15,617 nucleotides of DNA from Boothiomyces macroporosus (Eukaryota; Chytridiomycota; Chytridiomycetes; Rhizophydiales; Terramycetaceae). Below the pieces are notes generated by a model. The model was not told where the DNA came from and ran no database searches. It worked only from the letters and a program-made list of their open reading frames with translations. How positions within the stretch are numbered: the first letter of the stretch is position 1; every line of letters starts with the position of its first letter. Shown here in pieces: positions 2,927 through 15,617 of this stretch. Location: positions 1-15,617 of the forward strand of contig JADGKB010000196.1 of NCBI GenBank assembly GCA_027604185.1, given 5' to 3'. The position numbers and the translations under genes are program-made.

Positions 2927-4609
2927 CCAACGCTCACATTTCTAGAATTTTTCACTAAATGTGCAATAGTGTCCACATACTCAGACTTACTACAACTAAT
3001 CAATTTTCTGCATGGCCATTCAAATTCTTTTCTTGGAGGCACAGCATGTGAATTTCTTACTACTCGATGTGAAGACTGGTCCATCTTGAACGGAATGAAG
3101 TTTGCTGCGACAAAGTGTATTTTTGTTGGGGACGAAAATATCCATGATTATAGAATCTATAATGTCCCCATCAGCAGTGAAAAACAGCCAAAATACCTGG
3201 GCATACCTCTGGGAGGGAGTGGAATCGACCTGGCCTTGAACGCACAGCAAAGAGCAACGAAAACGAGGGCAGTAACACATATGCTGGCTGAACTTGGCAT
3301 GAACAGCACAGGGTTTCCTCAAGAAGCATCAGTTAGAATGTACAAAGCCTTTATCCGTCCCACTTTTGAGTATGGACTGCAGCTAGGCACTCTCGATAAA
3401 CCATCACTTGAGTTGCTTCAAAAAGCTCAGAACCTAGCACTCAGAATGATCCTTGGCGCCAACAGAAGCACCTCGATTGCCGCAATGCACAAGCTATGTG
3501 TGCTAGAAACTGTATCCCAGAGAAACAACTATCTCTCCACTTGTTTCTTTGCTCCCCTCATCAACAATGATCCTCAAGTCCAAGACTTTCCAGCTACCAC
3601 TCTGGTCCAAGCTCAAATCCGCACTCACACTGCTTCCACTTTATTCAGCAAAGCAGTGACTCAGAACTCACTGCTCCAGTCCTTATTGAACCGAGCAAAC
3701 CTCAATGCTCTCCGATGGATCCCCTTTGAAAATCAAGTCCAAGATCTAGTCCAGCTCCCAGAGAAATCCTACTTTTACGACCTACTAGTTAACATGGAAG
3801 CTCCTTACCATCGTCCTGATCCAGAAACTGTCACTGTAGCTGGTGCTGTGTGTCTTGTTGAAAAAGAAACTACCAGGGTTGTGTTGACTTCAAAAGTAAA
3901 AATGCAAAAAAAAATTCGAGCGGCACTCCTTAAATGGCTAACTGGTGGCGTGGCACGACATCAAGAATGCAAATGTGGACAAGAACTCTCACGGTCGCAT
4001 GCAGTATTATGCTCTGGAGTAGGTGCATTTCTGAACCAGCATCTGCCTAGAAGCTCAGCTCACTACCAAATGACGAACCCTTTGGATAGTACCATTAACT
4101 TTTATCGCTTAGAGAGGAACCCTGAGGTGTATCTACTTATATTTCGATGCATCCAAGCCATCTATGTTAACTGTTTGGGCTACCAGCAAAGACCCAATGG
4201 CTACTACTCTAGCGAAGAGCAGGCTAGAAACGATGCAGCAGCTGCTGGTCTAGAGCCCAATATCGTTGAATACTTTCCCATGGACGCTCCTGATATAGTG
4301 CAGCTTGCACAGACTGTGTCTGCTTGGCCCTCAGAACCGCCAGAAGTGACCATAGCTACCAAATTGGCTCAAGCAACAGACCGTCGACCCTCTGGTCGAG
4401 TGTACACTTGGAATGGAGTGGTAGACTATGAATTCCTGCCAGTAGCCCAGAGAAATGCGATTGCAAGAAGGAACAGAGCTCGAAATAGAGTGCCTAACCG
4501 CTACAACCGCCAATTTGCACTGCCTGCTGCTCAAAGGGCGATTGAAATTGAAGCTATCCATGATGCTATGGACGTTGACGCTGAAATGATAAACAGGCAT
4601 TATTATTGA
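2927..4609 (+). mobile_element. 5'-truncated LINE (non-LTR) ORF2 C-terminal part
   Basis: An uninterrupted frame of about 560 codons, open from a stop at 2924. Its first in-frame ATG lies well inside, so it has no proper start. It carries the region after the reverse-transcriptase palm: CEDWSILNGMKF...KC (a W..NGM.....K block), YLGIPLGGSGID, YKAFIRPTFEYG and LQKAQNLALRMILG, a series common to fungal LINE proteins. A Cys/His cluster follows, C-x-C-x7-H-x3-C (residues 334, 336, 344, 348 counted from 2969), like the zinc motif at the end of many LINE ORF2 proteins. The catalytic YADD motif and the endonuclease are absent, so it cannot work alone. The stop codon sits within a few bases of coding-like host sequence, so the 3' UTR must be nearly absent. 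The intact frame suggests fairly recent insertion. Confidence 0.82.
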
Positions 4610-12228: not shown

Positions 12229-14264
12229 CCAATTCGGATTGGTTTGTTTCAACACTACGCTGAGGGCCCTAAGGAGTCGGCTCACATTAAACTCACAAAA
12301 GTAACATTCCGGTTCATTGAAAAGTGCGGCCGAAAATTAAAAGTACCAGAATTAGCATTTGATGAGTTTGAGAAATTCGCAGCTTTCAATTTTCCTGTCT
12401 GGATTTCAGACGAAAAATATTTAAATCTCAATGAGCCAAATGGAGATATTGAAAGAGTGCGGACAGGAATTTCTGCTGAAACCAAAAAACATCAACCAGA
12501 CGCTTCAAAAGATTGAATCTTGCTTCAACTCTCAGAAATCGCAGATCAGACAGCAAGCGTTCATCGAATGGCAGAAGCTGATTTACATGTTTCGAAACGA
12601 TCTCAATCTTAAAAAGGTAAAGCTGATTCTGGTACCGATATTGAACTGTTTAAAGTTTGAAAAGAACAGTAAAGTCCTCGAGTCGGCGAAAGAAACGCTA
12701 ATGTACTTGGCAATATTGGGAAATGGGTTGTTGGTGTACGAGCTGGCTGACGGAGCGCAGGAATTGGATGCGATCTTGTTGAAACTGTATTCAGGTAGGT
12801 ACTAGATCTTGGATCTTTAAAAGAGCATCTAATTTTAGACCCACTCACTAGCAAGAAGGGAAATGAACTTGGAGTAGAGCAACTGGGGAAACCGTATGAA
12901 GAAATAATCAAAGTGTCTCCAAAGCCTATGAGCGAAATTGAATTCACAAAAATCAAGTATTTACTAGAAAAAAACAAACTGTTTCCAGTAGTAATCAATT
13001 ACTTTTCCTATCTATGGAACGAAAGAAAGCCTACAACGTTTGATTTGCTGAATATGATTATGGTTCATTTGGATCAGCATTTTAGCAAAGAAAACTGTTT
13101 GACATTGACAAGTATAAAAATTCCATTCAAGAAGGGGAACAGTGACCTAAAAATTCTTCGATATCTAACCAAACTGGTGGACAGGTTGATTCAAATGAAT
13201 TCGTTTGACGAGCTGGTTGAATTTTCCAAACTGTTAAAGCAGGAAGGAACTGGAAAGTCTCCTCTATCCCTAATCAAACGGCTAAAAAACGAATCTCCCT
13301 TGAAAAAGCAAGAGAGTTCACCATTGAAAAAGAAAGTAAATCAGGCACCAGAGATTGATTTGGGTAATATTTTTGAATATCCAGAATCAATTCAGGCTAA
13401 AAAGACTGTAAATATTAACCTGGATGAAAAATCAAACATATTTGACGATCAAACAGTTGAAAAATCCAAAGTGTTGGGGAACGCTGAACGTGCCGTGAAT
13501 AACATATCTCTACCTTTTGAAGACAGTACGAAATCCATGACAGTAAATGGTGAAATCCTTGGTAATATTCAAGATCTTTCAGTGATATTTGGTCAAGATC
13601 CTAGCACTCCAAATATTGAGGTGGACCAAACACAATCTTTTCATATTGAAAATTCATTAGTGACGGAAGACGCCATCTCAAAAAAGGATGGAATTATACC
13701 AGCTGTGTGTCAAGAGCCTTCAATGATTCTCCCTGTACAGTCGAAAGAGCTGTATGAATTGTCAACAATACAGCCAAACGAATTCAATGATCAGACTATC
13801 AATCTTGACTTTGAAAAATCAATAGCTGAAAAGGAAAACAATCATTTAGCGGAAACTGCTATGCTTCTGGAACCATTATCAACTCCAACTGTACCATTTC
13901 AACCTCAAGCGGACACAGTTACCAATCAGGCGGTGAATCAAGATTTGGAAACTACACCAATTAATAGAAAAGACCACAAACGCAAGAAACGTCAATCGAC
14001 CGAATACATATCTGTTAGTACTACTAAACCAACAACAATACATGTAAATATGAATTAACTTAGCAAAAAAGCAGCGCAAACTTTATTCCGAAAATGTACA
14101 GCTCTTTGGACCAATCACAGAAACGGCTCAAGGTGGATAATTGGCGAGAAATATTAGAATCAAATATTGAGCAAATGAGCATCGGGGAGTTACTTCGAGT
14201 TCAAAAAGATTTGGGTGAAGTGGTATCCACTATCAGTTCTTTAATATTAAAGAAAATAAACTAG
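12229..14264 (+). CDS. Rif1-like HEAT-repeat protein (tentative), 5' end unresolved
   Basis: Coding-like sequence starts after an acceptor-like CCCGCAG at 12228 and reads HIKLTKVTFRFIEKCGRKLK...FPVWISDEKY with no ATG. Near 12397-12457 the reading moves to the frame of ATG 12431 (QEFLLKPKNINQTLQKIESC, RQQAFIEWQKLIYMF). Then follow a 44-nt intron (12795-12838), a long exon (12839-14043) and, after a 20-nt intron, a last exon to TAG 14264. From ATG 12431 this gives 589 residues. The first part is helical-repeat-like, with IRQQAFIEWQKLI recalling the Rif1 N-terminal domain (R..A...W..LI); the middle is polar and disordered, with basic DHKRKKRQ; the end is a short helical domain (WREILESNIEQMSIGELLRV). 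True Rif1 is much longer, so this could be a shortened homologue, a truncated gene or another HEAT protein. Confidence 0.5.
12795..12838 (+). other. 44-nt intron in the Rif1-like gene
   Basis: GTAGGT at the 5' end, TCTAATTTTAG at the 3' end with a CTAAT branch-like word 5 nt before the end. The length is 3n+2 with an in-frame TAG. Removal joins LKLYS to DPLTSKKGNE in frame. Confidence 0.75.
14044..14063 (+). other. 20-nt intron in the Rif1-like gene
   Basis: GTAAATATGAATTAACTTAG. Phase 0; the in-frame TAA falls inside the branch-like TTAAC. Removal joins ...TTIH to QKSSANF...SQKRLKVDNW in frame. A longer choice ending at TCACAG 14120 (77 nt) also keeps the frame, but its acceptor lacks a nearby branch word; the close match to the tyrosinase introns favours 20 nt. 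Confidence 0.6.
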
Positions 14265-14565: not shown

Positions 14566-15617
14566 ATGCTCATCAGTCTCTTGTTTGTAAAGCTTGTGCT
14601 ATCTGCCTGTACAACTTTCCGCGAAAATGTTGAATGGAGGGAAATGACGTTGGACGAACAAAAATCTTTTTTGGACGCTGTAAAGTGTTTGAAAAGCAAG
14701 CCATCAAAGATCTTGAATAATGAATTTGAATGGGACGAATTGACTTATGCTCATGCACAAGTTGCTTCCAGCATTCACAACCATCCAGTTTTCTTGCCTT
14801 GGCACAGACAATTCATTCAAATTATGGATCGAAAGTTGATTGATTCGTGTGGCTACTCTGGTAAATTCCCATACTGGGATGAACAGGTACATTGTTGCTG
14901 ATTTAGCACGATTCTCAAGCCCCTGAACTTTCTCCACTTTGGGAGCTATTTGGTGGCAATGGAGAATCCGGCGATCATTGCGTTGTAGATGGACGTTTGG
15001 GTACTTTTTCAAGCTAACTTTAGCAAACATGATGTCTAGCTATCCATCAAAGCACTGTGTAGCTCGAGAGTGGTCTGGTGCATCCCAAGGTAGTAATCAA
15101 GACGAATTGATGGCATCTTTCTATTCCCCTGCCCAAGTAGCTCTAATCCTTGCTTCACCTGATTATGACAATTTTCGTGAAAACCTCGAAAACAATCTCC
15201 ACAACATGGTTCATGTGGGCATTGGTGGTGACATGTATGATCCAACAACATCTCCAGGTGATCCAATGTTCTTTATGCACCACAGAAACGTAGACAGATT
15301 GTGGTGGGTTTGGCAACAACAAGATCCAAACAACCGCTTAATGCAATATCAAAGTACGGATAGTATTACTGCCACGATGCCTTCATTTTCTGGGCTAAGC
15401 AAGAATTACCTTATCTCTGATGTTATGGACATCACCAATGGAGGTAGAATTATTACTTGACAGTAGGCGCCGATGGTTCAATGTGTGTAAAGTACTCAAA
15501 TTCAATTACTCCTGATGACAACGATGCATATTTACAAGCTCCAGCACCACCAGTTTATTCACCAGCACCACCAGTTTATTCACCAGCACCACCAGTTTAT
15601 TCACCAGCACCACCAGT
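14566..15617 (+). CDS. Secreted tyrosinase with PAPPVYS repeat tail (3' partial)
   Basis: Exons 14566-14886, 14907-15000, 15024-15443 and 15464 onward give 329 codons before the window ends. The chosen start yields a signal peptide (MLISLLFVKLVLSA). The CuA site has H63, H71 and H80 (YAHAQ...IHNHPVFLPWHR). The CuB site has H198 and H202 (HNMVH, followed by GIGGDM) and H224/H225 in DPMFFMHHRNVDRLW. These define a type-3 dicopper enzyme oxidising monophenols to o-quinones, as in melanin formation. FPYWDE, LFGGNGESGDHC and YPSKHCVAREW match fungal tyrosinases. After exon 4 begins, the chain turns to PAPPVYS repeats, which suggests a cell-wall or extracellular attachment tail in place of the usual latency domain. 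Three 20-23-nt introns interrupt it. The 3' end is outside the window. Confidence 0.92.
14887..14906 (+). other. 20-nt intron 1 of the tyrosinase gene
   Basis: GTACATTGTTGCTGATTTAG, phase 0. The in-frame TGA lies inside the branch-like CTGAT. Removal joins FPYWDEQ to HDSQAPELSPLWELFGGNG, the expected tyrosinase order. Confidence 0.88.
15001..15023 (+). other. 23-nt intron 2 of the tyrosinase gene
   Basis: Begins GTACTT and ends GCTAACTTTAG, phase 1, with a perfect fungal branch word CTAAC. The in-frame TAA lies inside it. Removal joins HCVVDGRL to ANMMSSYPSKHC. Confidence 0.88.
15444..15463 (+). other. 20-nt intron 3 of the tyrosinase gene
   Basis: GTAGAATTATTACTTGACAG, phase 1. The in-frame TGA lies inside the branch-like TTGAC. 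Removal joins DITNG to VGADGSMCVKYS and opens the repeat tail. Confidence 0.85.
15541..15617 (+). repeat. 21-bp coding tandem repeat (PAPPVYS)
   Basis: Three perfect copies of CCAGCACCACCAGTTTATTC+A start at 15541, 15562 and 15583, and a fourth, cut by the window edge, starts at 15604. Each encodes Pro-Ala-Pro-Pro-Val-Tyr-Ser in the tyrosinase frame. Visible units are identical at DNA level, so the array is young or homogenised, and copy number may vary between strains. Confidence 0.95.

Follow-up and report, generated by a model that had tools for sequence, protein, structure and literature searches.

The tyrosinase gene at one end of a contig of the chytrid Boothiomyces macroporosus is broken by three short GT-AG segments of 20, 23 and probably 23 nt. 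Judged from the sequence, these are very probably spliceosomal introns, predicted members of a genome-wide population with a sharp length peak at 19 to 22 nt. The first-pass annotation had proposed ultra-short spliceosomal introns in a fungus on the basis of this gene, and the proposal is supported by an excess of GT-AG segments, by recurring branch words and by occurrence across the genome. The gene lies in the window, the 15,617-nt stretch of DNA that was analysed, which is the whole of contig C196 in an assembly of 15,203,306 bases (15.2 Mb) and 216 contigs. NCBI taxonomy places the organism in the Chytridiomycota, Rhizophydiales, Terramycetaceae. The spliced tyrosinase of the window is identical across 278 aa to the B. 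macroporosus public protein HK103_002600, and another public protein of the species, HK103_003493, is matched by a second gene on contig C26.

The tyrosinase gene occupies 14566..15617 on the + strand, starting with the public model's first ATG and lacking its 3' end, which is cut off where the contig stops. Intron 1 (14887..14906, + strand, 20 nt, GTACATTGTTGCTGATTTAG) carries the branch word CTGAT with its A at intron nucleotide 15, and intron 2 (15001..15023, + strand, 23 nt, GTACTTTTTCAAGCTAACTTTAG) carries CTAAC with its A at nucleotide 17. Once both are left out, translation gives a continuous tyrosinase. The spliced protein scored 132.4 bits against the PF00264 profile and the outer pieces 46.1 and 81.5 bits; a PF00264 search with the middle exon alone gave no match. 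The public model splices introns 1 and 2 identically and ends at the start of intron 3. This third intron (15444..15466, + strand, GTAGAATTATTACTTGACAGTAG; branch word TTGAC, A at nucleotide 17) is likely 23 nt long. Ending it at 15466 gives NGGADGSMC, which aligns without a gap to LGGANG of a paralogue. A 20-nt intron 3 ending at 15463 was rejected: it leaves one extra residue relative to related proteins and puts the AG only 3 nt past the branch A, a distance found in one of 69 introns with a branch word. The predicted end is likely better placed at 15466 than at 15463. The lengths given in the first-pass annotation (20, 23 and 20 nt) are thus exact for introns 1 and 2, and its start for intron 3 stands, but the end of intron 3 probably does not; the three branch words that it named are all present, but the third had been set in the rare 3-nt spacing. 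The 23-nt introns of the window fall in the upper tail of the population, which centres on 19-21 nt. At 15540-15617 the C-terminal part of the tyrosinase enters tandem repeats (PAPPVYSPAPPVYSP), which are probably the reason the assembly broke there.

Tyrosinase paralogues provide an internal control. In a paralogue on contig C75, introns of 20 and 22 nt are predicted at positions that differ from those of the window gene, and the sites interrupted in either gene are continuous in the other. All five junctions of the two spliced tyrosinases align gap-free. Tyrosinase matches on C93 (three copies) and C97 read through the whole domain with no stops.

A further intron is predicted upstream in the window, in a Rif1-like gene (12425-14264, with the Rif1_N match at 12425-12802). 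It lies at 14044..14063 on the + strand, is 20 nt long (GTAAATATGAATTAACTTAG) and has the branch word TTAAC with its A at nucleotide 15; its removal links the frame from 12928 to 14264. A frame change in the same gene near 12790-12805 coincides with no high-scoring short intron. Elsewhere in the window, at 2927-4609, a GC-richer long ORF of 560 aa resembles by eye the 3' part of a non-LTR retrotransposon; a Pfam scan of this ORF returned no matches.

In the survey of intron lengths, run on DNA, the predicted introns peak at 19-22 nt by frame rescue and at 19-21 nt by motif scanning. For frame rescue, 20 stretches of 10 kb outside the window were sampled by a fixed rule, two from each of ten larger contigs, and all removals of 12-200 nt that join two open stretches and cure a stop or a frame change were counted. 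This test is blind to stop-free introns whose length is divisible by three. With open flanks of 180 nt, GT-AG ranked first among all end-pairs at 19-22 nt (137 vs 46.2 expected). It also came first with the other flanks, at 69 vs 11.8 with 300 nt and 292 vs 177.0 with 120 nt. The next end-pairs, GG-TA (81 vs 42.5), AG-TA (95 vs 62.2) and TA-GG (65 vs 39.5), appear to reflect the GT-AG introns in a shifted register. At other lengths, with 180-nt flanks, GT-AG removals were close to expectation: 60 vs 63.0 at 12-18 nt and 94 vs 91.6 at 23-29 nt; and, against a baseline fitted on 30-200 nt, so that a surplus spread evenly over those lengths would stay hidden, 583 vs 574.7 at 50-79 nt, 991 vs 997.8 at 80-119 nt and 2565 vs 2602.0 at 120-200 nt. 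The surplus at 30-49 nt was marginal (324 vs 288.4) and leaves room for a minor class of introns that are longer or paired. In these 20 stretches the GC-AG and AT-AC classes were not in excess.

An earlier frame scan covered the 20 stretches and the window and took its baseline from dinucleotide frequencies. It counted 34, 57, 27 and 23 removals at 19, 20, 21 and 22 nt vs 13.0, 17.0, 4.0 and 13.6 expected; between 23 and 130 nt there was no peak. The same lengths emerge when the reading frame is ignored. A motif scan for GTANHY followed by YTRAY and then YAG found, with the branch A 5 nt before the last G, 36 matches at 19 nt and 31 at 20 nt, and, with the A 6 nt before it, 24 at 20 nt and 12 at 21 nt. 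The background at 32-120 nt averaged 1.38 (5 nt) and 1.16 (6 nt) per length, as against 1.31 and 1.18 in reversed-donor controls, and this range showed no excess. A strict pattern that allowed a spacer of 0-30 nt and fixed the tail at 6 nt matched the whole genome 151 times and its reversed form 28 times. Among the 100 matches listed, 50 were 20 nt, 20 were 21 nt, six were 22 nt, three were 23 nt, three were 17-18 nt, 16 were 26-46 nt and, under-counted owing to the fixed tail, two were 19 nt.

Heuristic gene models contain 208 introns in 115 models, with at least one intron in 85 of the 115; the script used hand-set scores that favour 19-21 nt and permitted only 18-24 nt, so its intron lengths are no evidence for the peak, and it missed several exons of Isy1. 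Rough extrapolation puts the total for the genome between about 7,000 introns (scaled from the frame-rescue excess) and about 16,000 (scaled from the gene models).

Predicted junctions were also checked against proteins. In six genes picked for their conservation rather than at random, the two tyrosinases among them, 20 of 23 junctions are gap-free and the remaining three could not be judged. For example, all four junctions are gap-free in a ubiquitin-conjugating enzyme, as are all four in 7-dehydrocholesterol reductase when aligned with Batrachochytrium and other chytrids. In a USP5-like protease five of six are gap-free, the sixth lying in a region too weakly aligned to judge, and in the U2AF large subunit two of four, the other two lying outside the printed alignment. 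Three of 20 randomly drawn gene models were scanned for domains; of the seven junctions predicted in them, five lie within the RPN1, RhoGAP and CAP-Gly domains that they match.

The splice signals have a tight geometry. In a training set of 86 introns of 19-21 nt that start with GTA, 69 have a YTRAH branch word. The distance from the branch A to the last G is 5 nt in 40 of these and 6 nt in 23, hence 5 or 6 nt in 63, and the A is intron nucleotide 14 in 33, 15 in 29 and 16 in six of the 69. In a set of 97 introns of 19-22 nt, G is the last exon base in 58% and stands at intron position 5 in only 9%, giving the donor consensus AAG|GTAAWT. Donor position 5 is weaker than the 5' end of U1, AUACUUACCUG, would allow. 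A mechanism can be proposed in which the first six intron nucleotides of this consensus would pair with U1 and then with U6, while the branch word a few nucleotides downstream would pair with U2. The donor duplex and the U2-branch duplex would just fit side by side, the lariat loop would be of ~14 nt, and the tail of 5-6 nt after the branch would offer no space for a polypyrimidine tract. The spacing from donor to branch would then itself form part of the splice signal.

Several components expected to act on such introns are encoded in the genome. Two U2 snRNA genes scored above the cut-off and contain GUAGUA, with which the YTRAY branch words are able to pair. One U6 gene carries ACAGAGA. One U1 gene scored 68.8 bits, 0.7 below the cut-off of 69.5, and has a canonical 5' end. 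A genome search for U5 gave no match, and neither did the control of that search. All five splicing proteins that were sought were found: the large and small subunits of U2AF, SF1, Isy1 and Cwc25. The genes for U2AF, SF1 and Cwc25 are themselves broken by predicted introns of 19-22 nt. Taken exon by exon, the U2AF large subunit reached 230.7 bits, below the curated cut-off of 310.3; the spliced protein matched the solved human U2AF65 with 1.3e-61. The first 14 residues of Cwc25, MGGGDLNLKKSWHP, are identical to chain 5yzg_X of a solved spliceosome, so that its N-terminal plug is intact. Cwc25 is present twice with equal scores (loci L040 and L041, on C49 and C100), perhaps by duplication or as two haplotypes of one locus. 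The first-pass annotation had named U2AF, SF1 and U2 components for inspection. The genes are there; from their sequences the parts examined look ordinary and not remodelled, and the introns are likely removed by a largely ordinary splicing machine.

The consequences of short introns for gene annotation are seen in 7-dehydrocholesterol reductase on C26. The public model, HK103_003493, is 367 aa long vs 483 aa in the short-intron model, and it is reproduced letter for letter when 281 and 128 nt are removed. The 281-nt skip begins within intron 1 and stops where intron 2 does, and the 128-nt skip spans everything from the first nucleotide of intron 3 to the last of intron 4. Four introns of 20-21 nt instead give back 115 residues that are present in other chytrids. 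Relative to the short-intron model the public protein lacks 86 and 29 residues, about a quarter of the whole, has 6 unrelated ones in their place and has its start 7 residues further in. At the first two junctions of the gene, 4 and about 17 residues are missing from the reductase of Terramyces sp. JEL0728 (P0069), a hint from the protein sequence which suggests that Terramyces carries the same short introns there. Proteomes of this group would suffer from gene finders that avoid very short introns.

The two skips in HK103_003493 could also be taken at face value, with true introns of ordinary length and the short segments as decoys within them. This is very improbable, since the 115 residues deleted by the skips can be aligned with the reductases of other chytrids, and since frame rescue in the sampled stretches showed no peak at 50 to 200 nt and the motif scan no excess at 32 to 120 nt. 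Still less probable is that the segments are kept in the mRNA and bypassed in translation, through ribosomal bypassing or frameshifting. Removal from RNA and skipping by the ribosome are inseparable by sequence alone, but the GT-AG ends, the YTRAY words able to pair with U2, and the genes for U1, U2 and U6 point to the spliceosome. The least probable reading attributes the breaks to insertions made in assembly or sequencing. The assembly is a draft in 216 contigs, and no high-scoring short intron accounts for the window's frame change near 12790-12805; errors, though, would not pick GT...AG at 19-22 nt from all end-pairs, nor would they place a branch word at 5-6 nt from the end.

Searches of an open-access library turned up no account of such introns in a chytrid. 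The terms 'short introns' and 'shortest' are absent from the available text of a survey of 644 fungal genomes (PMC8476143), and the available text of two Rhizophydiales genome papers gives no intron lengths (PMC13391722, PMC5364385). In the papers cited here, uniform introns near 20 nt have been described from ciliates, nucleomorphs and mikrocytids, and in several of these the signals are degenerate or the spliceosome is reduced. The nucleomorph of Bigelowiella natans comes closest in length, with uniform GU-AG introns of 18-21 nt (PMC10245619) or 18-23 nt (PMC6461891), nearly equal to those of Boothiomyces. However, it is a relic genome with 800-1,000 introns in which neither a donor motif nor a branch signature is identifiable (PMC6461891, PMC2483917), whereas Boothiomyces has a fungal nuclear genome of 15.2 Mb, an estimated 7,000-16,000 introns and clear branch words. 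Stentor coeruleus resembles Boothiomyces in having uniform tiny introns without genome reduction and retains a broad set of splicing parts (PMC9505925). Its introns are shorter (15-16 nt) and lack a strong branch consensus, and its Cwc25 is without the glycine-rich N-terminal plug, a divergence conjectured to give room for the tiny lariat (PMC9505925). With clear branch words and an intact Cwc25 plug, Boothiomyces differs on both counts; by this comparison, made on Cwc25, a plug divergence of the Stentor type seems unneeded here.

The introns of mikrocytids (16-17 nt, n=224) share with those of Boothiomyces a very narrow length range and a conserved sequence, but these are reduced parasites in which 17-19 spliceosomal proteins were found (PMC10245619), while in Boothiomyces introns are abundant and the five splicing proteins sought are all present. 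Paramecium and Nyctotherus likewise have very short introns genome-wide, but longer ones of about 25 nt (PMC5014332), in Paramecium without a branch signature (PMC2483917). Encephalitozoon cuniculi, a relative of fungi, has 13 introns with a mean of 35.8 nt and a conserved branch motif (PMC2483917). It combines short introns with a branch motif as Boothiomyces does, but over a wider length range; those of Boothiomyces peak narrowly at 19-22 nt and occur in 85 of 115 gene models. Boothiomyces shares with the ultra-short systems the narrow peak and the lack of a substantial longer class. The degenerate or absent branch signal of nucleomorphs, Stentor and Paramecium was not found; its branch words are clear and their spacing fixed. 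The GT-AG ends and a branch word predicted to pair with U2 are those of U2-type introns.

A wider interpretation is reasonably probable, if well short of assured. In a fungus with a nuclear genome that is not relic-like, essentially the whole intron population, numbering thousands, would have shrunk to 19-22 nt, while branch sites and a conventional Cwc25 plug were kept. The core of the spliceosome would then need no special remodelling to work at the geometric minimum, and the 14-15-nt spacing from donor to branch would act as a recognition signal. The trait would be common to related genera such as Terramyces, with damage to the public gene models there. A chytrid with clear branch sites and ordinary-looking parts would let one probe the minimum substrate of the spliceosome, and it would argue against the idea that tiny introns require a remodelled active site.

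Two minor observations concern the introns themselves. One 20-nt intron pattern occurs five times in the genome (on C2, C3 and C9, with two copies on C9 543 nt apart) and its control not at all; five are too few to judge copying, and intron copying and gene duplication are both possible sources that these counts do not separate. At the 5' end of the Isy1 gene (L042, 1259-1299) two intron-like 20-mers lie one base apart, possibly as a paired or nested intron, and this pair may be linked to the slight surplus at 30-49 nt.
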